From a virus, in the IMG/VR virus record IMGVR_UViG_3300031787_000433, positions 1 through 35,351 of that record: 35,351 nucleotides of DNA, one strand, 5' to 3'. The position numbers were made by a program, and so were the translations under genes. Below are positions 6,745 to 35,351 of this stretch, piece after piece (within the stretch, counting starts at the first letter, position 1; the number at the start of each line of letters is the position of its first letter). The notes below the pieces were generated by a model. That model had not been told where the DNA came from. It saw nothing but the letters and a program-made list of their open reading frames with translations, and did no database searches.

Positions 6745-7299
6745 TTAAAAAACGTCAATAACTTTTTTGCGAATCACGGGAGATTTCTCCCATGCAAACC
6801 CATTTTTGCCGGCAACCGGATCCATCGGGAACCAGCGATACTCACCCTCAGCGTTAGGCATCAAAACCTCAACGTAAACGTGCGTGAAATCCTGTCCACG
6901 CCAAGCGATGACCTTGTACTTAACACGGAATCCCATTGCACCAAGAAGGGCGGCAAGCATCATCGACATATCATCGCAGTCGCCAACTAATACACCAAGC
7001 TGATGCTTAGGTGCGATCAAAAATTCTGTTGTTGACGGATTTTTGACATCGGCCCATTCGGTAACGTGCTGATGATCGAATTTGTAGTCGATATTATCCA
7101 CTACCCAATCGAACGCTGCCTTCACTTTGCAGAACTCTTTTTGCACACCCGACGTGCCTGAGCACTGAGCTGATAATCTTTTTGCCAACGTTTTAACGTC
7201 GGGAGTACGCGAATCGCGCCGCGCAAGCCTGATCATGTGATCGAGCGTTTTACCAATGGCTGAATCGCCCTTGCCTATGTCGCGCACAACCGTTTTCAT
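6745..7299 (-). CDS. Transglutaminase-like cysteine protease-fold protein (184 aa)
   Basis: The protein shows the three transglutaminase-like active-site blocks in order: GDCDDMS (C108), THVYVEV (H140) and MDPVA (D160). Members of this superfamily act as transglutaminases, proteases or amidases, so the Cys-His-Asp triad supports an active enzyme without naming its substrate. There is no signal peptide. Its ATG directly follows the TAA of the tail-anchored neighbour. Inference: it may process or crosslink virion proteins during assembly, or attack the cell envelope at entry. Complete blocks argue against a degenerate copy. Confidence 0.85.
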   Translation of the reverse strand: MKTVVRDIGKGDSAIGKTLDHMIRLARRDSRTPDVKTLAKRLSAQCSGTSGVQKEFCKVKAAFDWVVDNIDYKFDHQHVTEWADVKNPSTTEFLIAPKHQLGVLVGDCDDMSMMLAALLGAMGFRVKYKVIAWRGQDFTHVYVEVLMPNAEGEYRWFPMDPVAGKNGFAWEKSPVIRKKVIDVF

Positions 7300-13032: not shown

Positions 13033-13049
13033 GTGACCATTTTGGTCAC
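13033..13049 (-). other. Hairpin overlapping the stop of the first early gene
   Basis: A perfect 6-bp inverted repeat (GTGACC at 13033-13038 with GGTCAC at 13044-13049, 5-nt loop) contains the TGA of the first early gene in one arm. No T tract follows directly on the minus strand. It may be a processing or attenuation point between the first gene and the rest of the unit, or a bound operator. Confidence 0.4.
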
Positions 13050-13255
13050 GGAAAGAGGACAAGCTCAGGTTTAATTACCGGATCCGGCTCCAATGATGTC
13101 AAGAGCACGATACTGGTAAGGAATGCGCTTATGGCGATGATCGAGGCCATAAGCCGATATTGCTGCGGGGTTGCTACCATGTAGGGCCATACCCTCAGCC
13201 CCCGCTTGCCTGTCAGCGCGTCAGTAACTATCGCAATCTCTACTCCGATTCGCAT
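13046..13255 (-). CDS. First early gene: small single-pass membrane protein (69 aa)
   Basis: The frame extends to an ATG at 13327, but the promoter (-35 at 13324-13319, -10 at 13301-13296) lies inside that extension. The transcript therefore begins near 13289, and the real start is the ATG at 13255 with AAAGG upstream. The 69-residue protein has one membrane segment (LMASIIAISAFLTSIVLLTSL) near its C-terminal half. Function unknown; immediate-early membrane proteins often alter host membrane traits or exclude other phages. Confidence 0.65.
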   Translation of the reverse strand: MRIGVEIAIVTDALTGKRGLRVWPYMVATPQQYRLMASIIAISAFLTSIVLLTSLEPDPVIKPELVLFP

Positions 13256-13295: not shown

Positions 13296-13324
13296 AATAT
13301 AAGGCTTGTAATTGTACCTGTCAA
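13296..13324 (-). promoter_or_regulatory. Near-consensus sigma70 promoter of the early minus unit
   Basis: Reading the minus strand, TTGACA (13324-13319) is followed after exactly 17 nt by TATATT (13301-13296). This is a perfect -35 and a five-of-six -10 at optimal spacing. The predicted transcript start is near 13289, giving a leader of about 34 nt to the first early ATG at 13255. Confidence 0.85.
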
Positions 13325-13437
13325 CATTTTTTTTTGCGTGCAATGCGCGTGCCGTAGGATTTCATGTTATGATTGTTTGTTTCATAACATTGTATCAAAG
13401 CCTAAGTTATTGATTTCTTTAGACTTAATGATCCTGG

Positions 13438-13671
13438 AAAACCTGCGGAAAACCTGCGGAAAACCTGCGGAAAACCTGCGGATACGGCGGGAAGATACTT
13501 TCGTAAGGCGGCAAAAGTTTCCGCACACTTCCGCGATGTTTCCGCGTTTGAGCGGCGACGTAAATACTTTGATGTCAACGACTTATGACAGTGATGCGGA
13601 AAGGCGTTTTTCATCCGCTATGTTTCCGCGTCGCTTCCGCAATCTGGAGACCAGTGTTTACGGGCTTCCGC
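13438..13671. other. Iteron-like repeat region, candidate replication origin
   Basis: Four perfect head-to-tail copies of the 11-mer AAAACCTGCGG occupy 13438-13481. The core GCGGAAA recurs at 13596-13602. Inverted forms TTTCCGC or TTCCGC recur at 13518-13524, 13529-13534, 13539-13545, 13623-13629, 13635-13640 and 13666-13671. The whole lies in the non-coding gap between divergent units, next to the helicase operon. Iterons of this kind bind initiators or repressors in plasmids and phages. An origin with autoregulation is the favoured reading; a multi-site operator is the alternative. Confidence 0.7.
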
Positions 13672-13697: not shown

Positions 13698-13792
13698 GTC
13701 ATAGTGGGGTACTTGTTCAAAAGTCTATTTGCAGCTATCACATTTATTGTGCTTATTGCGCCCCTTCTTTCACTTCTATCAGGATGACACGT

Positions 13793-14008
13793 ATGTCACC
13801 GCAACTTCCTACTAGGTTGCCGGCTTGCCGGAACCGACTGCGGCGTGGAGCTATCACGCTTATTGCACAATTAACAGGTCGAAACGTTCACACCGTGCGA
13901 CTATGGGTGAATCATGGCGAGCCGGTAGCTAGTAAGCTGAGCGATACGGAAAGATCCGCACTGCGACGCTGTATCGAAGCGTGCATCGTGACTTCGGAGG
14001 GAGTGTAA
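13793..14008 (+). CDS. Small helix-turn-helix-type regulator (71 aa)
   Basis: AGGA at 13781-13784 is spaced 8 nt from the ATG at 13793, favouring it over the ATG at 13784, which sits inside the ribosome site. The short basic protein has a helix-turn-helix-like core (ITLIAQLTGRNVHTVRLWVNHG) resembling small Cro-type or excisionase-type proteins. As first gene of the replication unit beside the iterons, it is a good candidate for the repeat-binding regulator or initiator. Binding is inference. Confidence 0.6.
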   Translation: MSPQLPTRLPACRNRLRRGAITLIAQLTGRNVHTVRLWVNHGEPVASKLSDTERSALRRCIEACIVTSEGV

Positions 14009-14493
14009 TGCAGCAAAATCACAACCAAACCGCAGATCCAAACGCAAACGCCCAAGCCTTTTTAGACATGATGGACGACCTTGCAAGCTGGATCATTCTT
14101 GCACCGCACACGCAACCGAGTAGGATCATGCACCTACCCGAAGGCGTACACGATTTGACCGAAAATCAAATGAAGCGCATGACAGACGAGTACAACATGG
14201 TCGAAGCCATTGTGCAAATTCTGGACGAAACGAAAACAGAGTTGCAGGGGCTAGGGCTATCACCCTTGAGGTACGAGCAAGAATTGATACTTCGATTTAA
14301 TACGCTTATGCACCCCCAGAGCGAAAAAATTGCCCAAGCTGTGTATGATCATTGGCGTTATCAGATCACCGACGGCAATGCACGGTTGAACATGGCAAAA
14401 GCAAAGACGATTTTGGAGATGTTCCAGAAAATTGCATTTATCCGCACGTCCTACGCTCATTTGTTCTACGCACCAAAATCCGAATCGCGCTGA
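14008..14493 (+). CDS. Unknown protein of the replication unit (161 aa)
   Basis: The ATG at 14008 overlaps the upstream TAA (TAATG) and has GGAGGG 5 nt before it, which decides the start. The 161 residues are soluble and almost wholly helical (AQAFLDMMDDLASWIIL, YNMVEAIVQILDETKTEL). No family was recognised. Its stop overlaps the helicase start (TGATG), so the two are coupled. It may load the helicase or bind the origin, which is inference from position only. Confidence 0.65.
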   Translation: MQQNHNQTADPNANAQAFLDMMDDLASWIILAPHTQPSRIMHLPEGVHDLTENQMKRMTDEYNMVEAIVQILDETKTELQGLGLSPLRYEQELILRFNTLMHPQSEKIAQAVYDHWRYQITDGNARLNMAKAKTILEMFQKIAFIRTSYAHLFYAPKSESR

Positions 14494-16232
14494 TGACCGA
14501 GCAACAGGGGAACGATCAAAACGCCGACATAGCTGAACTGTCGAAACGGCTTTTTGAAGGGCTTAAAGCCCTACAAGCAGAGTCACCTATTGACGCAGCG
14601 TATCAAATCGCTGACGATCATACGCGATACGCCGGCAGACTAATAGCCGAAGGCAGCACGACTGAAGCTGAGGCCCGTAGGCGGTTGTTGCCGATAATCG
14701 AGGGTTACGCGATCGCTCGCGCTAGAAATGATGACGAGGTTACGGACGAGTTAATAGCGCGTTTCACTGCATCATTTGATGCCGCTCTTGAGCAAGGCAT
14801 TACACGTACACAGACGTTCGACCGGATCCGCGAAGCCATAGATTATGCAAGCCTAGCGAGCAAATACGCGCAGCGGATTTGGAAGGTAACGGAGCACGGT
14901 AACAAGCTGATTCATACCGCTACGGCTGAATGCGTACTCGAAGAGGTCAAATTGGTATGTGTCGATCTGGGTATGCGAAAGCAATTTTATCAGTACGATG
15001 ATGACGGCGGCAAGTGGGAAAAGGTTACGACCATGACCGTCAAAAAAATTGTCGTCGGTATAATTGGCGATGCAGCTACCGACAGCACAGCAAGCGCGGT
15101 CGTTGGCCTTGTGGCTATAATGTGTGAGGTACGACAAGATGCGTTCAATGCCGGATCGCACCTGATAAATCTGCGTAACACAGCGTTCGATCTTGACCTA
15201 TACAAGCCCGTACCACATAAGCCACAGCATTACTTCACGTACCATTTGACGTATGAATACGATGCTGAGGCAACTTGTTCCTACACAGACAGTATGTTAT
15301 CGCAATATGCGATGCACGATCCGGCATGGATAAATTGTTTTTGGGAAATGGCGGGTTTTTGCCTACAAGCGGATTACTTCGTCAACAAAATGTTCTGGTT
15401 GGTCGGTGACGGCAGTAATGGCAAATCGACGGTGCAGAAACTATTGCACGAATTGATAGGACACTCGCTAACGAAAACCGGGTTTCGCGTTTCCGATCTA
15501 GGCAAGGACTTCTACCTTTATTCGGTTATCGGCAAAAGGATGGCCTTATGCGGCGACGCAGCCGTTCGCATGGATAATATGGACTTGCTCAAGCAGTTTA
15601 CCGGGGGCGATGCGCTCTCTACGAACGTCAAATTTGGTGATTATGTGCAGTTCGAGAATACCGCTAAGCTCATTCTGTGTATGAACCGCGCACCACTTAT
15701 TTCATCGCATGAAGCCCTGAAGCCAATTACACGACGCATAATCTGGCTTCCATTTGAATATCGAATTTTACAGCCGGATCCGAGCGTAGATAAGAAAATG
15801 CTGAGTGAATTACCGGGGGCTTTCAATCGCGCCGTGGAAGGACTTGTGCGGTTACGACGACAGGGTACTTTTACTAAGGTTGACCGGGGTGAAAAAGCTC
15901 TTTCAATTTGGGCTGGTACGGCAAACCTACTCGAAGTATTCATCAGCGAAAACGTGCGGGTACGCGAAAATGAAAAAATCCGGCTAGGCCAACTATGGGA
16001 CATATATCGCAAATGGATGGATCAGTGGGGCGGCAGACTGTGGGAATCAGATCCGTACAATATCCGAAGCGCACACCAACTAAGCCGGGAGATCATTGCA
16101 CGCTACGGATGCAAAAAAGAGTACGAGCAATGCCGTTATTACAGCGCGGACGGTCATTGGATCAGCGGTAAACAGGTTTTTCTTTACGGCATTGGACTGA
16201 GCGAGGAAGAATCGCGGGAAGTCAACTTCTAA
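14493..16232 (+). CDS. SF3 replication helicase, D5/phage P4 type (579 aa)
   Basis: The start at 14493 (TGATG coupling) gives 579 residues; an open frame further upstream overlaps the previous gene. A D5-type N-terminal region (about 125-290) leads to the SF3 ATPase: Walker A GDGSNGKS (305-312), Walker B-like block RMALCGDA (D355), sensor I block LILCMNRAP (N398) and a following arginine pair (RRIIWLPF). Such helicases unwind DNA at viral and plasmid origins. The first 120 residues are helical and show no archaeo-eukaryotic primase motifs, so priming is probably done by the host or another protein. It is the only clear replication enzyme in the genome. Confidence 0.92.
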   Translation: MTEQQGNDQNADIAELSKRLFEGLKALQAESPIDAAYQIADDHTRYAGRLIAEGSTTEAEARRRLLPIIEGYAIARARNDDEVTDELIARFTASFDAALEQGITRTQTFDRIREAIDYASLASKYAQRIWKVTEHGNKLIHTATAECVLEEVKLVCVDLGMRKQFYQYDDDGGKWEKVTTMTVKKIVVGIIGDAATDSTASAVVGLVAIMCEVRQDAFNAGSHLINLRNTAFDLDLYKPVPHKPQHYFTYHLTYEYDAEATCSYTDSMLSQYAMHDPAWINCFWEMAGFCLQADYFVNKMFWLVGDGSNGKSTVQKLLHELIGHSLTKTGFRVSDLGKDFYLYSVIGKRMALCGDAAVRMDNMDLLKQFTGGDALSTNVKFGDYVQFENTAKLILCMNRAPLISSHEALKPITRRIIWLPFEYRILQPDPSVDKKMLSELPGAFNRAVEGLVRLRRQGTFTKVDRGEKALSIWAGTANLLEVFISENVRVRENEKIRLGQLWDIYRKWMDQWGGRLWESDPYNIRSAHQLSREIIARYGCKKEYEQCRYYSADGHWISGKQVFLYGIGLSEEESREVNF

Positions 16233-16424
16233 CCGTGAAAAACGGGAAGCAAAACACGGAATTGAACAAAAAAAACGACGTAAGTGCTTAATTTTCATCG
16301 TCAAATTGCACACGAATTTAGACAATTGCACAAGTAACACGTCATTTGCAGGGTTTATGGCGGGTTCTTTATCGTTGTCTAGCGGTATTTTGATGGTATT
16401 TTGCAGGTCATTTGGAGCAACAAA
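16233..16424 (+). promoter_or_regulatory. Non-coding gap with possible weak promoter
   Basis: The 192-bp gap between helicase and regulator holds two copies of AATTGCACA (near 16304 and 16324). A weak promoter-like pair, TTGTCT at 16375-16380 and TATTTT at 16397-16402 with 16-bp spacing, lies upstream of the regulator gene. It could allow separate expression of the two small downstream genes. Evidence is modest. Confidence 0.3.
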
Positions 16425-16718
16425 ATGAAAATTGACGAAACGGAACCGATCACCGGAGCTGAGCTTCAATTCATTCGCGTCCGATACGGTTTGAGTTTGA
16501 CGAGCGCAGCGAAGGTATTGCATACCACGAGGCACTATCTCAAGAAGGTAGAAGCCGGCGATAAGCCATGTAAGGTCATCTACGCTAAGCGATACGAGCA
16601 AGCTATTGGCCCAAAGTGGCTGCGGATGCTGCGTAAGCTGTACGTGCAGCACAAAGCAAAAAAGCCCTCAGCACTTGTGCCGGGGCTTAATGATCATTTC
16701 TTTGAGGAATCAGAATGA
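16425..16718 (+). CDS. XRE/Cro-like DNA-binding regulator (97 aa)
   Basis: GGAG at 8 nt before the ATG at 16425 supports this start over an upstream TTG. Residues about 9-55 match a Cro/CI-type helix-turn-helix: TGAELQFIRVRYGLSL, then AAKVLHTTRHYLKKVEAG. It probably binds operator DNA as a dimer. Located after the helicase with its own possible promoter, it could repress the plus or early minus promoters, or switch on late genes. The C-terminal part is basic then acidic (HFFEESE). Confidence 0.7.
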   Translation: MKIDETEPITGAELQFIRVRYGLSLTSAAKVLHTTRHYLKKVEAGDKPCKVIYAKRYEQAIGPKWLRMLRKLYVQHKAKKPSALVPGLNDHFFEESE

Positions 16719-16933
16719 AGATGTTACTGACGTTGCCGGTAACCGGAATGAGCCGGCTGGAACACTTTTCAGCACTTATTTACGCAGAACTGCAAGGCAA
16801 ACAGCCTGCAATCGACATGAGCTTCGAGCACGACGCAGAATTAGCCGTCCTTGCAATGAACAAGGCTCAAGTCTTAATCAAAATGCTTCAGGCTATGGAG
16901 AACTTGGACGATGAGACGGTAATGCCGTCTTAG
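16715..16933 (+). CDS. Small unknown protein (72 aa)
   Basis: ATGA overlap with the regulator upstream supports translation. The product is acidic, mostly helical (HFSALIYAELQ, LAMNKAQVLIKMLQAMENL) and soluble, with no family match. It is the last gene of the plus unit and ends 4 bp from the end of the convergent J-domain gene. Confidence 0.55.
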   Translation: MKMLLTLPVTGMSRLEHFSALIYAELQGKQPAIDMSFEHDAELAVLAMNKAQVLIKMLQAMENLDDETVMPS

Positions 16934-17447: not shown

Positions 17448-20198
17448 TTACCACGATTTTTTCCACCCCGGATCACGCAGCCCCTTACTGCCAAAGATCG
17501 TATGCGACTTCAGCGGCCCGTCACGGTGTTTCCGCAATTCCGCCATGCCATTTCCCTTGTCGTTTGACGTAGCAATCTCAGTGTCAACAGCGTGCGCCAA
17601 TGCTTGAATGCCGAGGTAAGCGTTCTTGCCTTTCGTGGCCTGTGCAATGAAGATCCAACTTATCTCCGGGAACGTTTGCATTAGCTCAACAATTTTTTGC
17701 TGCTCAGTGTTCAGCATATTGATCGAGTCGATAATGACATAACGATATTCGCCGGTATTAACGAGTGCCGTCAGGCGGTCGATCGTTCCAGCGTCATCAA
17801 AATTGATATTTGCCGAATACGCTTTCATCAGATCCATGCGTGCTTTTAGGCGACCTGACGCGACCTTTTCTTCCGTCATGTAGTAGAGAACACGCCCCGT
17901 ATCGGTTTCAGCAAGCTCATTGGCGAGACGCAGGACGAACGATGACTTGCCGGATCCGGGGCCGCCCCAAATCAGCATATTGAATTTTGCAAGCAAATTG
18001 GTCAGAAATTCACGCATCTCACCCGTCAGCGGCAACGATTCAGGGGGATCCATCGACACTATGTCGTTTGTGGTAAGCGGCGCAACGTTCATCGGATCGG
18101 CTGCGGTGGTGTCCGGAACTTTGGAATCCATATCAGCCGGTTCAGTGTTCACTTGCGTCATGGTATCGTTGTCAGATAGACCCTTGTTTTCGACAGTCTG
18201 CGGATCTGCACCAATCTGAGCAACATCCTCAAAATCATAACTTGTATCATCGCCCACGGTGTTGCCGCCGTGCTTTGCGAGAATGTTCTTAGCCCACGTA
18301 TAGGCCGCGTCACCGCCCCACAAGGCCCATGCAATCCGTCCGGCACTAGGATAGCCGTTCTCGCCCAAGCGGAAACCTTCAGCATCCTTGTCCACTTGGT
18401 GACGATCAAAGTAGGCTTTGATTCGCTTAATCGTCTCTAGGCTAACTTTCCGTCCATTAGAAAGATCCCTCGCCCTAGCTACGCCAACCTCAGTACCGCC
18501 ACGATTAAACTCGCGCCGCCACTGTAAGCCTCGCGTTGCTTCACGTTGTGCCAATTCTGGCACATGAAAGGTTATACCTTCCATTGGCTCCCCGGTGCTC
18601 ACCGCAGGATCATAGCCCCACTCATGGATGCTATTGCCGTCTGTGAACAAATCCTTTGCCTTTACCACTTTGGATATAATCGTGTATCCACCCGGTATGG
18701 CAAGTTCGCCATGATCTTCGGCATATCGCCTTGTGAGCGTAACCCAATCGCGTACACCAATCGAAGGCTGAATGGTTACACCGTCAACCGATCCCAAGTT
18801 TTCTACCTGATACTCGACAAATTCACTGTACTCGGATGCGCTGTGAACGGGAACGTCCGCCCACGGCGGAATAGCCGAATTATCACGCATATAGCGACGA
18901 TCTTGCTTTAGATCTGTCAGTGAATCACGCAAGCCCTTTTGAACGGCTCGGTAAATCTTCACCTTAGCGTCGGGCTTGTTGTGAATGTTCCGGATGATCT
19001 GCAATGCTTCGGCATCAGCGTCAGTACCATCGCCGTAAATGCCCAGTGCCCTTGAAAACGGCAACGAGTAAATATCGGGGAAGGCTCGCGCAGCATCGTG
19101 GGCAGGAGCGAAATCGTCATCACGATATGGAGCTTTATGGCGTTGCCCTGATCCGGAATCGACTACGTTTTCATTCTCTGAAAGTCCGCTCACACTGCTT
19201 TTTCTACCTATCGCCTGATTCGCCAACAATAGGACATCGTTAATGTCGGCAGTTCCAAATTTACCCTCTGCGGTGCGGTCGATAACTGCGCGAGAATAGA
19301 GGTAAAGCGCACGATCTAGACCGCGTGATTTGTAGCGATCTAAGGCGTTCAAATGCGATCTATGCCACGCGCTATGTGTAACGTCCGACCATATTTGCGC
19401 CCCGCGCTCATCGCAAGAAAAGTAATTGTTTGCAGAACCGTTGCTCAGGTGCATGGCTAAGGTCGGGTTGTCAGTAGCCAAAATGTCAATCTGCAACTTC
19501 GTTGAATCTTTTACATACGCGATGTTTTCTTCAATCTCATCTTCATCAATCACCTGATTGCGCGTGATCCTGCTGAAACTATACCGATAAGGGACAGTGA
19601 TGGCAACAAGTTCGGTGATCGAGGTAAATCGGCAAAATGCCTGAAAATCTGCATAGGAAAACGCCGCACAATTAGGATGGTTGTGCGTAACGTAAAATTC
19701 TCGTGTCGTGTCACTCAAAAGATCGACCGGGATGCTAACCGCGCCCTTGTCGATTGAAGCGTAACAGACGTGAACGGGCCGCTCATTGTCACGTTGTAAA
19801 CGACCTTCAAAGACCCCAATGTATTCCATTTGCGCCGATGCAATGGCCTGATTAAATTCAGTCCTATTAAGCATTGTAAGAGCCTCAAGAAGCTCGCTTG
19901 ACGGCGGGTTAGGAGGTACACGATCATCACACGCCTCAGCATCAAATTCAACGACCGCCGATTGTGCTGATTGTTGCCAAAGTGTAAGTGATTTCCGAAT
20001 CAGTACAGCCCTATCAAGATCCGTGTCTGCGTCAATAGGAAAATCACCCGACTCAATCTCTCGCTCAAGATCGGCTAACAAACGGGCAATACGCGGTGCG
20101 TCCGCCGCCGCCGCAGAAGGTACTGTCGCAATGCGTCGCGGCCCCGGCGGACATACGATGTCTCGCCAGTCTGTCACGGAATTTGTTGTCAGTGTCAT
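17448..20198 (-). CDS. Multidomain protein: JAB-like, ART-like, phage module and RecA-like ATPase (916 aa)
   Basis: Four modules can be seen. Residues 125-205 hold a JAB/MPN-like metal motif (H172, H174, S181, D184), with one residue fewer than the classical H-x-H-x7-S-x2-D spacing. Residues 413-530 resemble the ADP-ribosyltransferase-like domains of phage polyvalent proteins (IYRAVQKG with R417; WVTLTRRYAEDHG; HEWGYDP with E526). Residues 550-645 carry a phage module (GGTEVGVARARDLSNG, PSAGRIAWALWGGDA). Residues 730-900 form a RecA/RadA-like ATPase with Walker A GGPGSGKS (745-752) and Walker B YVIIDS (D824). It may be injected or act on host targets; the ATPase is one candidate for DNA packaging. 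Its start overlaps the upstream gene (ATGA). Confidence 0.75.
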   Translation of the reverse strand: MTLTTNSVTDWRDIVCPPGPRRIATVPSAAAADAPRIARLLADLEREIESGDFPIDADTDLDRAVLIRKSLTLWQQSAQSAVVEFDAEACDDRVPPNPPSSELLEALTMLNRTEFNQAIASAQMEYIGVFEGRLQRDNERPVHVCYASIDKGAVSIPVDLLSDTTREFYVTHNHPNCAAFSYADFQAFCRFTSITELVAITVPYRYSFSRITRNQVIDEDEIEENIAYVKDSTKLQIDILATDNPTLAMHLSNGSANNYFSCDERGAQIWSDVTHSAWHRSHLNALDRYKSRGLDRALYLYSRAVIDRTAEGKFGTADINDVLLLANQAIGRKSSVSGLSENENVVDSGSGQRHKAPYRDDDFAPAHDAARAFPDIYSLPFSRALGIYGDGTDADAEALQIIRNIHNKPDAKVKIYRAVQKGLRDSLTDLKQDRRYMRDNSAIPPWADVPVHSASEYSEFVEYQVENLGSVDGVTIQPSIGVRDWVTLTRRYAEDHGELAIPGGYTIISKVVKAKDLFTDGNSIHEWGYDPAVSTGEPMEGITFHVPELAQREATRGLQWRREFNRGGTEVGVARARDLSNGRKVSLETIKRIKAYFDRHQVDKDAEGFRLGENGYPSAGRIAWALWGGDAAYTWAKNILAKHGGNTVGDDTSYDFEDVAQIGADPQTVENKGLSDNDTMTQVNTEPADMDSKVPDTTAADPMNVAPLTTNDIVSMDPPESLPLTGEMREFLTNLLAKFNMLIWGGPGSGKSSFVLRLANELAETDTGRVLYYMTEEKVASGRLKARMDLMKAYSANINFDDAGTIDRLTALVNTGEYRYVIIDSINMLNTEQQKIVELMQTFPEISWIFIAQATKGKNAYLGIQALAHAVDTEIATSNDKGNGMAELRKHRDGPLKSHTIFGSKGLRDPGWKKSW

Positions 20199-21873: not shown

Positions 21874-23381
21874 TATTGCCAGTTGATCATGTTGTCTGAT
21901 GGTAGATCACGATACTGATGCGTCGCAAACACGCGGTCGTAATCCATATAAACTCGCAAATTGTCTTGCTGAGAACGGTTGAACGTAGTAATAACAGCGT
22001 CAACGTGATCCTTGAGCGTTTTGCCGCTATCCAAAGCCCACACATCTTTACGCTCGCCATTTTTCCGGGCCATTTCCTGATAATACACTGAACCAGCCGT
22101 CTCAAGCCATCGCAAAGAGATAGTTGAGTCAACACGATTTTCGAGGATCCATTGCCGCAGGCGCATACCTACGGAGTAAACAAGTAATGCGCCAGCACTT
22201 TTCTTTTCAATTTTTTCGTTGAAACCAACATAGTACACAGATCCGCTGAATCGGTCGAGTAGCGACAAATCTTGCCGTGTATTTGCCGTATAAGATGCGC
22301 TTTCAGCCGTTGGAAAAACATTCCCGGTCGCGATAACTCCAAATCCCTCAGCTTTTTGCTTTGGCTCGTTTCGACCATTGTAGATAACAGCGCGATCCGA
22401 TCCGACGCGAACCTTTGTCTTTGCAAGGGCTTCGTTCAACAGTCCCGCTGTATTCGGGTCAATTTTGGGAAGCTCGTCAAGAATCAGGACTTTCCCATCC
22501 GCCCAACAATTTATGAGTGCCCCTTCCACGTAGCCATCAATCGTAGGGCCGCCCTTAATGTCTCCGGGCGACGTGTACTGCGAACAATTCAGAGTAATGT
22601 ATTGCCTTTTTATGTCCCTGCAAATCTTCTCCGCTAAGTACGTCTTTCCTGAACCGGCGGGGCCAACAAGGAAAACATTGTGTCCAAGTTTTATGTCGTC
22701 GATGATCTTGTAATAATCCGGTATATCCTCGACTTCGGAAGCATCGACTACTGGCAAATCGGGTGCGTTCTCCCATTCTAACTTCTTCGTGCTTTCAATA
22801 GCGTTGCGTACTTCTTCCGAAAGACCATCGAAGCCAACCTTGTAAGACTCCATGTAGTTGGCTATGACATTCGTCACGGCATCAACGTCCAAACCTTTCT
22901 CGACGGCCTCATAACCCTGACACAATTCGAGAGCAAAAATGTACCGATTTGTGCTGAAGGGGGCGCGGCAAGTCAAATTCGTGTCAAATACGAAACCTTG
23001 AAGTTCACAAGCGGCACGGAGGCGATCATCCGGTGCTTCCGAAAGACTTATCACGATATTGCCGCCGATACGACTGATCACGCAGTTGTTAGTGACCTTG
23101 ACCGTACCTTCGGGCGGGATTGTAGATTCCCCTCGCAAACCTTGTCTCCGGATACGCAGAATGGCGATACGGTCATCGGCCCTTTCGCGCTCCATCGTAC
23201 CAGACGCGACCTCTGATTCTATCTCTGCAATTTTGTTGTCAATATCCTGCACTGTACGGTAATCGGCTAGGTTACCTAGTCCTGATAGCGTACTGCGAGA
23301 ATTATGATATGCTTTCAACCGTTCAAATGCAGCCCGTTCTATTCTGGGCGAACGCTGCTTATTGGTGCGAGTGTTTTTCAT
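21873..23381 (-). CDS. MoxR/dynein-type AAA+ ATPase (502 aa)
   Basis: Complete AAA+ motifs are present: Walker A GPAGSGKT (240-247), Walker B VLILDELP (298-305), sensor I in VIATGN (N354) and an arginine-finger region SLLDRFSG (R377). The helix-2 insert and CSQYTSPGDIKGG are typical of the CobS/MoxR/AAA_5 group. The N-terminal 200 residues include a basic coiled-coil and a small beta domain. Such ATPases form hexameric rings that remodel partner complexes. It is coupled to the possible VWA-like gene. Virion or replication roles are both possible. Confidence 0.85.
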   Translation of the reverse strand: MKNTRTNKQRSPRIERAAFERLKAYHNSRSTLSGLGNLADYRTVQDIDNKIAEIESEVASGTMERERADDRIAILRIRRQGLRGESTIPPEGTVKVTNNCVISRIGGNIVISLSEAPDDRLRAACELQGFVFDTNLTCRAPFSTNRYIFALELCQGYEAVEKGLDVDAVTNVIANYMESYKVGFDGLSEEVRNAIESTKKLEWENAPDLPVVDASEVEDIPDYYKIIDDIKLGHNVFLVGPAGSGKTYLAEKICRDIKRQYITLNCSQYTSPGDIKGGPTIDGYVEGALINCWADGKVLILDELPKIDPNTAGLLNEALAKTKVRVGSDRAVIYNGRNEPKQKAEGFGVIATGNVFPTAESASYTANTRQDLSLLDRFSGSVYYVGFNEKIEKKSAGALLVYSVGMRLRQWILENRVDSTISLRWLETAGSVYYQEMARKNGERKDVWALDSGKTLKDHVDAVITTFNRSQQDNLRVYMDYDRVFATHQYRDLPSDNMINWQ

Positions 23382-25717: not shown

Positions 25718-26077
25718 TTATTTGCAGCCGCCCGGCTTATTGCTTCCCAAACGCTTGCCAGCGGACGAGGCTCCCGTAAGTCGTAGCTTCTTACCCGCAG
25801 CCTTGCAAGCTGGTGAAATGACGCGCTTGGCCTTATCGACGCTTTTCTTGGCTGCCTTCTTAGCAACCTTCTTGGCTGCCTTCTTAGCAACCTTCTTGGC
25901 TGCCTTCTTAGCAACCTTCTTGGCTGCCTTCTTCTTGGTAGCCTTGTAAGGACTCATTGAAGATTGCTTCGGGAACGTCTTTGCAGACAAACCGCGCTTT
26001 TTTGTGCCCTTGCGCCGACGTTTACGCCAACCTTTTTTGGCGGCGGCGGATCGCTCAGATTTTGTGAGCTTTGCCAT
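25718..26077 (-). CDS. Histone H1-like basic DNA-condensing protein (119 aa)
   Basis: The protein is extremely basic. After an N-terminus of KKGWRKRRRKGTKKRG type, residues about 47-77 repeat KKAAKKVA, the Lys/Ala repeat of histone H1-like proteins of bacteria and viruses. The C-terminus has two cysteines. Strong AAGGAG precedes the ATG by 8 nt. As the last late gene, its product would be abundant at packaging; neutralising DNA charge inside a virion is the inferred role. The repeats are encoded by perfect 24-bp DNA units. Confidence 0.85.
   Translation of the reverse strand: MAKLTKSERSAAAKKGWRKRRRKGTKKRGLSAKTFPKQSSMSPYKATKKKAAKKVAKKAAKKVAKKAAKKVAKKAAKKSVDKAKRVISPACKAAGKKLRLTGASSAGKRLGSNKPGGCK
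25845..25934. repeat. 24-bp tandem repeat encoding Lys/Ala units
   Basis: Three identical 24-bp units (25845-25868, 25869-25892, 25893-25916) are followed by an 18-bp partial copy. Each encodes one eight-residue Lys/Ala unit. Identity at silent positions points to recent slippage, so repeat number may vary among relatives. Confidence 0.9.
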
Positions 26078-26497: not shown

Positions 26498-27040
26498 TCA
26501 AAAGTTGAAAAGTGTTCGTGAAAGTCCAATGAAGATGCCGGGACGCGCCGTGACTACACCACCGTCCATAGACAGGGTAGCACCGATGCCAGCAGACAAC
26601 GCCCAATGGCCCGGAGAAGGGATGATATGCGTGGTGTCCACGTATAAAATCGTTGTATCACGCACCCCAAATTTGATTGAGGCCGTGATCCGACGACGTA
26701 TTTCGTCGCACCAGACGCTAATTGTGTCACGGTAGGCCGTTACGGTGTCCAATCCAAAGGCCACGCCCACACCACGCCGCTCAAGTTCGCTACGCAAACT
26801 ATCCCGTTGAACAATCAGCCGCATGATAGCCGCGCTATCGGTGTGATCATGCGTAATACGAACGGTATCGACACGGTGGTCGATGACTATTGTAGGTATG
26901 CGTACCTCAACCGGTATGCGCTTGACGGTAGTGACGGGCCGTGGAGGGCTATCGTTCGAGCAACGGCCCAAAACAAAGCCCAAAGCCAGTAAAACGATGA
27001 CCAGTAAAGCTGCAATATGGAGCTGCGACGACCGCATCAT
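26498..27040 (-). CDS. N-anchored coiled-coil envelope protein, possible spanin (180 aa)
   Basis: Residues 8-24 are one membrane segment (IAALLVIVLLALGFVLG) followed by a Cys. A Pro/Val-rich periplasmic stretch, a helix (SAAIMRLIVQRDSLRSELERRG), Asp-Thr-rich strands and a final beta-type end (GVVTARPGIFIGLSRTLFNF) with terminal Phe come next. The layout resembles DUF6808-type membrane proteins of Bacteroidota phages. It is ATGA-coupled to a CHAP hydrolase upstream, so a spanin-like lysis role is plausible but unproven. Confidence 0.55.
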   Translation of the reverse strand: MMRSSQLHIAALLVIVLLALGFVLGRCSNDSPPRPVTTVKRIPVEVRIPTIVIDHRVDTVRITHDHTDSAAIMRLIVQRDSLRSELERRGVGVAFGLDTVTAYRDTISVWCDEIRRRITASIKFGVRDTTILYVDTTHIIPSPGHWALSAGIGATLSMDGGVVTARPGIFIGLSRTLFNF

Positions 27041-27627
27041 CTACGCTTGCGTCCCTGATATAACCAGAGGGCGGCAGTCCCGATCAAAACAAGCCCAAAA
27101 AGCCCATTTGCGCTTGCTAGGATCGCGGATCCGCCGCCACTCTTGGATGCTGCGTGAATAAAGGAAAAATCCCATTTGCGCGATGCAACAGCGTTCCAGT
27201 CATAGTGGTAATAGGCTACGCGGCTGTCCAGATTGCCTTCTACGGTAGTGATGCCGTCGCTTTTGATTTCCGTAACAATACCGACATGACCGCTTGCTCC
27301 CGGAGAATCAGAACGTCGGTAGAATACCGACCCTACTTCAGGCTTCTTTGTGACATTCAGACCCGCCTTCTGCGACATGGTAAGCATCAGCCGTGCCCCC
27401 GCCGTGCGTGGTAGCGGATTCTCAACCCCTGCACGCCGCGCGGCCTCCTCATAGACGACCCACACGAACTTCGCGCACCACGCTTCGGGCCTCTTGTTGC
27501 GGATCCAATTAGGATCGAACTGCTCGTGAATCTTATCGACGCACACGCCACGGTTTGCGCTGGATTCCACGCAGTTACGTTCGTACCACTCGGCGGCTAC
27601 CGACGCTATTGTCTTGAAAGGAACCAT
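27037..27627 (-). CDS. CHAP-type peptidoglycan hydrolase with C-terminal anchor (196 aa)
   Basis: The NlpC/P60-like CHAP motifs are in order: EAWCAKFVW (C51), SGHVGIV (H114) and TVEGN (E130). Such enzymes cut the peptide stem or bridge of peptidoglycan. After about residue 170 a hydrophobic segment (GLFGLVLIGTAALWLY) with RKRR follows. An endolysin would normally lack a C-terminal anchor, so this is probably a virion membrane enzyme acting at entry, or an anchored lysin. It neighbours two small membrane proteins that could complete a lysis set. Confidence 0.8.
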   Translation of the reverse strand: MVPFKTIASVAAEWYERNCVESSANRGVCVDKIHEQFDPNWIRNKRPEAWCAKFVWVVYEEAARRAGVENPLPRTAGARLMLTMSQKAGLNVTKKPEVGSVFYRRSDSPGASGHVGIVTEIKSDGITTVEGNLDSRVAYYHYDWNAVASRKWDFSFIHAASKSGGGSAILASANGLFGLVLIGTAALWLYQGRKRR

Positions 27628-32706: not shown

Positions 32707-33294
32707 TTACGATCCTATGGCAATAAGACCCCTGACAATCATCTTGCCGAGGCCGCGATTCATAAAACGCTGTTTGTACCACACCCCACCGCCGTCACGC
32801 TGACTACCATTGTTTTTACGGGAGGTGTTTGCCTCAATCGTGGTGACCACACCGTCGGCCCGAACGTTGGTAATCAGAGCTGCATGACCAAGCCATTTTC
32901 TTGGGATGCGCCAGATAATGATGTCGCCGCGTCGTGCGGACGTGGAGCGGCACGCGACAAGAGTTTGCGCTGCTGTGACGTAGGCCGTCTGCGTGGATCC
33001 CGTGCGTGGCAATTTGTTGGAAAGGCCCGTAGCGTGTGAAGCATCGGAGGCCCATGTGTAGATCGCCGCGTAGCAATATGCACTTCGCAGCGGCATCCGT
33101 ACCATTCGGGCGTAACGGTCGATGTGTGCGCCATCATTACGACCCGTTTTCTCTGTCAGGCCAACATCAGCCGCGCCAAAAGACATTACCTTTTCGACGT
33201 ACAAAAGCGGCATCTGTGCTGCGTAACGCGGCAAAGCTGCGTGTAACGACGTACACGCAGCAAAGCAGACGATAAGCAGCACCAGACGCATCAT
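32707..33294 (-). CDS. Secreted CHAP-type hydrolase (195 aa)
   Basis: Residues 1-20 form a signal peptide (LVLLIVCFAACTSLHA). The enzyme part shows SAYCYAAIYTWA (C74), WLGHAALIT (H137) and TIEAN (E154, N156), the Cys-His-Glu/Asn layout of CHAP/NlpC-P60 enzymes. It follows a holin-like gene with which it shares base 33294. This looks like the endolysin: exported by the host Sec system, then acting on the periplasmic wall. It is the second CHAP-type enzyme in the genome. Confidence 0.75.
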   Translation of the reverse strand: MMRLVLLIVCFAACTSLHAALPRYAAQMPLLYVEKVMSFGAADVGLTEKTGRNDGAHIDRYARMVRMPLRSAYCYAAIYTWASDASHATGLSNKLPRTGSTQTAYVTAAQTLVACRSTSARRGDIIIWRIPRKWLGHAALITNVRADGVVTTIEANTSRKNNGSQRDGGGVWYKQRFMNRGLGKMIVRGLIAIGS

Positions 33295-33653
33295 TACAAA
33301 GCACCCCGGTAGGTAGCGAAGTACGTTAGCCCCACCACGATAGCTGTGCCGATATACACCATGCCGAGGGTACGAATACGGGCGGCAATGATCAGTTCAT
33401 CGCTATAATCGTCATCGTTACGGTACTCTGCGGTGTAGCCGATACGAGAATCGGTGAAATTGAGGGCTGTGTACGCCCATTGTGTCACCGTTGCTATTGC
33501 GGTCGTAGCAAATGCCGCTTGACAGGCTACGAGAAGGGTACGCACGGCTTCCGTGTCCCCTACATACAGCCCTACGACCGCAACAATCGCAATAAGCGTA
33601 GTTGATCGCAGGCCGAGGCGAACGCGACGGCGAATTTTAGTGCTGGACGGCAT
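33294..33653 (-). CDS. Multi-pass membrane protein, holin-like (119 aa)
   Basis: Three hydrophobic segments are visible (about TTLIAIVAVVGLYVG, LLVACQAAFATTAIATV and GMVYIGTAIVVGLTYFA), with a very basic N-terminus. Directly upstream of and coupled to the signal-bearing CHAP gene, it fits a class I-type holin. Alternative: a virion membrane protein. Confidence 0.6.
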   Translation of the reverse strand: MPSSTKIRRRVRLGLRSTTLIAIVAVVGLYVGDTEAVRTLLVACQAAFATTAIATVTQWAYTALNFTDSRIGYTAEYRNDDDYSDELIIAARIRTLGMVYIGTAIVVGLTYFATYRGAL

Positions 33654-34978: not shown

Positions 34979-35351
34979 TTAAGCAAATGGGCTTGTTTTC
35001 GACCAGTCCTGAAGGTTATAGGCTTGCCAAACTTTGCGCCGGTATGTTTCGCCGGCTCTAGAAAGGTTGTAGTGGCCCTGATTATATGCTACAACGGCCC
35101 TATCCCATGATCTACGAGCCTTGTTCACATATAGCCAAGCTATGTAGTATGATGCGAGCAGCATACTGTACCCCGGATCGTCAAGGGCTGCATTGGACTT
35201 GGGCTTAATTTTCAAGCGACGCTCGATGTCAAGCTGCGTTCCCTTGAGGATCTGCATGATTCCACGCGCCGAACTTGTGGGGTTTTTAGCGTCTGTATCA
35301 AATCGTGATTCGTGCCACGCTAGAGCAACGAGGATCCGTTTCCACATCGCG
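34979..35351 (-). CDS. Lytic transglycosylase, C-terminal part (continues from window start)
   Basis: This part contains residues from about 29 to the end (151) of the SLT-type transglycosylase whose first 70 codons are read at 1-210; the 127-bp repeat is counted twice. It shows ESRFD with the catalytic Glu, ARGIMQI, and AYNQGHYN, the conserved motif late in the SLT fold. An ATG at 35347 is internal and not the real start. Confidence 0.9.
   Translation of the reverse strand, partial: AMWKRILVALAWHESRFDTDAKNPTSSARGIMQILKGTQLDIERRLKIKPKSNAALDDPGYSMLLASYYIAWLYVNKARRSWDRAVVAYNQGHYNLSRAGETYRRKVWQAYNLQDWSKTSPFA
35225..35351. repeat. Terminal direct repeat, right copy
   Basis: Exact copy of bases 1-127; see the left copy. 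Removing one copy gives a circle of 35,224 bp. Confidence 0.95.

Follow-up and report, generated by a model that had tools for sequence, protein, structure and literature searches.

A predicted replication origin with conserved iteron spacing upstream of a P4-family helicase gene in a 35.2-kb viral genome

The Rep helicase of SaPI and the Cch2 helicase of SCCmec are self-loading initiators of mobile elements that act at short iterons, which are bound by their C-terminal domains; in SaPI and SCC elements, the origin immediately follows the helicase gene (PMC7581432). The locus described here belongs to a viral sequence of 35,351 nucleotides (IMG/VR record IMGVR_UViG_3300031787_000433; the whole analyzed stretch is referred to as the window) and is predicted to work with a similar pair of initiator helicase and short iterons. 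Unlike in SaPI and SCC, the array of the window is located approximately 0.8-1 kb upstream of the helicase gene, at the head of the operon, and its sites are found in both orientations and in a conserved 10.5-bp register on one helix face. The P4 alpha protein and the window helicase share the C-terminal domain of the P4-family primase/helicase (TIGR01613), whereas no primase domain was recognized in the N-terminal 190 residues of the latter. The P4 origin is noncoding and contains repeats, as in the window. In ori-lambda, phased direct repeats are placed beside an AT-rich melting element, as in the window. The lambda iterons lie within the O gene, whereas those of the window are intergenic; among the ORFs scanned, many of which matched no family, neither an O-like or RepA-like initiator gene nor a rolling-circle HUH or Rep_trans endonuclease gene was found. 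Salisaeta icosahedral phage 1 (NC_017983), which is tailless, has homologues of only two window proteins, namely the packaging ATPase (gp40) and a structural protein (gp34), and no homologue of the helicase was detectable in it.

The window has a perfect 127-bp direct terminal repeat (1-127 and 35225-35351), and the unit is therefore 35,224 bp. Judged from its sequence, the genome is probably complete and circular or circularly permuted. In a 916-aa protein (17451-20198, minus strand), the C-terminal region aligned with gp40, the packaging ATPase of Salisaeta icosahedral phage 1, and a 184-aa protein (6748-7299, minus strand) matched the same phage at the structural gene gp34 (E 8e-15). The 916-aa protein carries a ParB C-terminal-like segment besides the ATPase part. 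Because of the gp40 and gp34 homologues, and since no terminase was recognized in the ORFs scanned, the virion is likely to be of a tailless type, as predicted from the genes. The comparison suggests that the lineage is undescribed and is a distant relation of Salisaeta icosahedral phage 1. Elsewhere in the genome, two separate CHAP-domain endolysin-like proteins (27040-27627 and 32710-33294, both on the minus strand) are conserved in the two relatives introduced below, a MoxR/CobS-like AAA ATPase (21876-23381, minus strand) is distantly related to proteins of Acinetobacter phages and of uncultured phages from the gut, and a 119-aa ORF (25718-26077, minus strand) contains 3.7 perfect 24-bp tandem repeats (25845-25933).

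IMG/VR was scanned for relatives. IMGVR_UViG_3300032213_002590 (G002) was returned by the iteron-pattern scan and, independently, by a scan that used the 916-aa protein as query, and IMGVR_UViG_3300034272_002099 (G001) was obtained from the latter. Their helicases are 73% (G002) and 71% (G001) identical to that of the window, most genes are syntenic, and in both the array sits upstream of the orthologous helicase gene. The comparison set consists of three genomes, two of which are contigs without known ends. Single-protein scans of IMG/VR with the helicase and with the MoxR-type ATPase gave no matches, and the helicase-alignment scan of genome contigs found no provirus and no host. The iteron-pattern matches also included similar TGCGGAAA tandem arrays with an 11-bp period in the contigs L007 (785-811), L008 (1316-1342), and L009 (3104-3130). 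These contigs were judged unrelated because no relative of the helicase is encoded in them and terminase-like ORFs were seen by eye in two of the three.

The preliminary description had reported four perfect 11-mers without spacer, followed by inverted TTCCGC forms, and both observations were borne out. The AAAACCTGCGG units start at 13438, 13449, 13460, and 13471 and end at 13481, with no other copies in the window, and Tandem Repeats Finder placed the array at 13436-13482 on the plus strand (period 11, 100% match); the identical unit is present in G002. On the left, the inverted-repeat box TAAGT-N15-ACTTA (13403-13427) is found once in each of the three genomes, as is the conserved box TGTTTCATA (13378-13386), which precedes the TAAGT box by exactly 25 bp. 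A perfect 9-bp inverted repeat, ATGTTATGA / TCATAACAT (13364-13390), overlaps the TGTTTCATA box, and its left arm is not kept in the relatives.

Offsets of the sites were counted from the TAAGT box, with a minus sign for inverted sites. Rightward of the array, the first sites are the degenerate GCGGGA (13487-13492, plus strand, offset 84), also found as GCGGGA at 84 in G001, and the degenerate GCGGCA (13508-13513, plus strand, offset 105), an inverted partner of the 13519 site and an exact GCGGAA in G001. They are followed by three inverted TTCCGC sites (13519-13545, minus strand; starts 13519, 13529, and 13540; offsets 116, 126, and 137), a lone direct GCGGAA (13596-13601, plus strand, offset 193) that was absent from the preliminary description and is invariant across the three genomes, three inverted sites in 11-bp steps (13613-13640, minus strand; ATCCGC at 13613 and TTCCGC at 13624 and 13635; offsets 210, 221, and 232), and a final inverted TTCCGC (13666-13671, minus strand; offset 263, and 264 in the relatives). 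Packed into approximately 230 bp are 10 of the 27 GCGGAA/TTCCGC sites of the window, compared with a maximum of 6 copies of any 6-mer per 240 bp in 100 first-order Markov shuffles. In the real sequence, a 6-mer is more densely clustered only at 31.4 kb, in a coding CCACCA repeat. No Rfam family was matched by the window.

Conservation of the repeats in relatives, which had been put forward earlier as a check, was confirmed: repeats, orientation, and exact spacing are kept in both. The exact GCGGAA offsets are 42, 53, 64, 116-, 126-, 137-, 193, 221-, 232-, and 263- in the window, 42, 53, 64, 75, 116-, 137-, 193, 210-, 221-, and 264- in G002, and 53, 64, 75, 105, 126-, 193, 210-, and 221- in G001. 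The gaps among them are mostly filled by one-mismatch copies, and the offsets 42/53/64/75, 116-, 126-, 137-, 193+, 210-, 221-, and about 264- are shared by the three genomes. For the sites outside the array, the observed number of coincidences was reached by 0, 4, and 6 of 100,000 random placements in the three genome pairs. Ungapped identity was 74-82% in the sites, 41-53% in the spacers, and 26-42% in the downstream sequence. A neutral tandem duplication without function, to which the ease with which short tandem arrays arise and the TGCGGAAA arrays in three viral contigs that lack any relative of the helicase could point, is already contradicted by the orientation, exact spacing, and flanking boxes that were kept while the spacers diverged, and it is scarcely credible. 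Since the repeats recur with base-exact spacing in two distant relatives, the region is most likely a replication origin: positions of approximately 13355-13671 are probably, as we predict, the origin of a circular or circularizing 35.2-kb virus, of the P4/SaPI working type. For an origin of a known kind, the array geometry is unusually conserved and rigid.

The DNA beside the array was also the weakest in the genome. When the 35,224-bp unit was scored by nearest-neighbour energies, the least stable 60 bp of the window were those at 13367-13426 (z about 3.8), a putative DNA unwinding element, and the least stable 100 bp start at 13355 and adjoin the array. The array-adjacent DNA is the least stable in G001 and ranks third (60 bp) and second (100 bp) in G002. 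Strand bias gave mixed results. GC skew, proposed in the preliminary description for locating the origin, had its cumulative minimum at 32.8 kb, away from the array, and does not support an origin here. At fourfold-degenerate sites of the plus strand, the raw cumulative AT skew had its minimum at 13,861 and its maximum at 33,447. Circular detrending shifted the minimum to 17,427, and the detrended amplitude was matched by 3 of 5,000 gene-order permutations. The synonymous-site AT skew gives moderate backing at best to an origin here.

The exact sites showed a best period of 10.5-10.55 bp in each of the three genomes (R 0.78-0.84), and most of them would therefore lie on one face of the helix across approximately 220 bp. 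Compared with random positions, the register had p values of 0.0018 (window), 0.019 (G001), and 0.0026 (G002), and for the non-array sites in single genomes p was only 0.03 and 0.09. Since the test was chosen post hoc with the positions already seen, the three genomes do not provide independent evidence, and the signal is weak without the array, the phasing lends support and does not decide. We tentatively raise the possibility, in which our confidence is low, that the origin is a rigid lattice, with single sites of either orientation kept in one register over approximately 21 turns at base-exact spacing, in an undescribed lineage of a tailless type.

Plasmid partition sites can also have tandem phased sites, and a centromere-like partition or copy-control site bound by a partition protein was therefore considered. 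The ParB-like segment of the 916-aa protein, matched by a ParB C-terminal-domain phrog, could supply such a protein, but its gene is approximately 4 kb away and also carries the putative packaging ATPase, and no ParA gene was recognized in the ORFs scanned; we regard a partition site as very improbable.

On both sides, the large genes point leftward; the exception is one rightward operon (13784-16930), which opens immediately to the right of the array. For the first leftward gene (13046-13255, minus strand), an internal ATG was taken as the start, since homology to both relatives sets in near that point and the promoter would otherwise lie within the longer ORF's overlap. The operon opens with a gene for a 74-aa helix-turn-helix protein (13784-14008, plus strand), conserved in both relatives with 41-43% identity. 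The protein was modelled as a helix-turn-helix (mean pLDDT 74), and the Foldseek search with the model returned weak helix-turn-helix matches only (all E > 0.8). It is followed by a weakly conserved 161-aa protein with no assigned function (14008-14493, plus strand) and by the likely initiator, a 579-aa P4-family SF3 helicase of the primase C-terminal type (14493-16232, plus strand), the start of which was placed at the ATG at 14493 instead of at 14352, as this is roughly where homology to the relatives sets in. The helicase matched TIGR01613 (phage/plasmid primase P4 family) with 147.5 bits (curated cut-off 108.7) and the Pfam families D5_N and DUF5906. Its best match among solved structures was PDB 7ola, a DNA primase, which we take to be a SaPI helicase. 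The C-terminal residues are well conserved between the window and the relatives; the AlphaFold model, made with three sequences, had a mean pLDDT of 39.5 and was unusable. Farther downstream, a 96-aa helix-turn-helix protein (16428-16718, plus strand; weak HTH_31/HTH_3 match, about 70% identical in the relatives) is an alternative regulator. Because the SaPI Rep and SCCmec Cch2 helicases bind iterons via their C-terminal domains (PMC7581432), the window helicase was taken as the first candidate binder of the sites. As candidate binders, the 579-aa helicase and the 74-aa helix-turn-helix protein rank above the 71- and 97-residue regulators suggested earlier.

As previously described, the array is at a point of divergence, with promoters pointing apart on either side: a leftward one (TTGACA-N17-TATATT, 13296-13324, minus strand) and a rightward one (TTGTTC-N17-TATCAC, 13713-13741, plus strand), both with counterparts in the two relatives. 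This layout could also be that of a transcription-control region, in which the 74-aa or the 96-aa helix-turn-helix protein would occupy the GCGGAA sites and steer the divergent promoters, comparable to the immunity or early-control region of a phage. Divergent promoters on both flanks in three genomes, a conserved helix-turn-helix gene as the first rightward gene, and the resemblance of the TAAGT-N15-ACTTA box to a dimer site are consistent with such control. However, the GCGGAA sites stay clear of both conserved promoter cores in the three genomes, the last site starts 46-47 bp ahead of the rightward -35 box (window and G002), about a dozen phased sites beside the weakest DNA of the genome are more than a switch needs, and the 74-aa protein had no significant fold match in Foldseek. 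A region of this kind is unlikely to be the main explanation of the sites. Because the sites miss the promoter cores, an origin is favoured over a simple occlusion operator, and the layout is compatible with sites that may regulate from a distance. The earlier reading of the repeats as an origin or operator signal is supported by the conserved geometry, and two features that it had not foreseen, the adjacent least-stable DNA and the sites being clear of the promoters, favour the origin over the operator.

At the predicted origin, the helicase would bind the sites along a single helix face, probably via its C-terminal domain and possibly together with the 74-aa helix-turn-helix protein. The bound sites would form a compact, perhaps wrapped, complex, which would melt the neighbouring AT-rich DNA; helicase hexamers would then be loaded and theta replication started. 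Host primase and polymerase would supply the remaining functions, and among the scanned ORFs no viral polymerase was recognized. Since divergent promoters flank the array, the initiator complex may also tune both transcription units.

If the rigid lattice is true, initiation would use a wrapped single-face complex that loads an SF3 helicase, unlike at plain direct-repeat origins. Because the spacing is base-exact, an assembly on one face makes a sharp prediction: half-turn insertions would kill the origin, and full-turn insertions would be better tolerated. The locus would provide a compact, testable pair of origin and initiator for a virus group in which no cultured member was found here.
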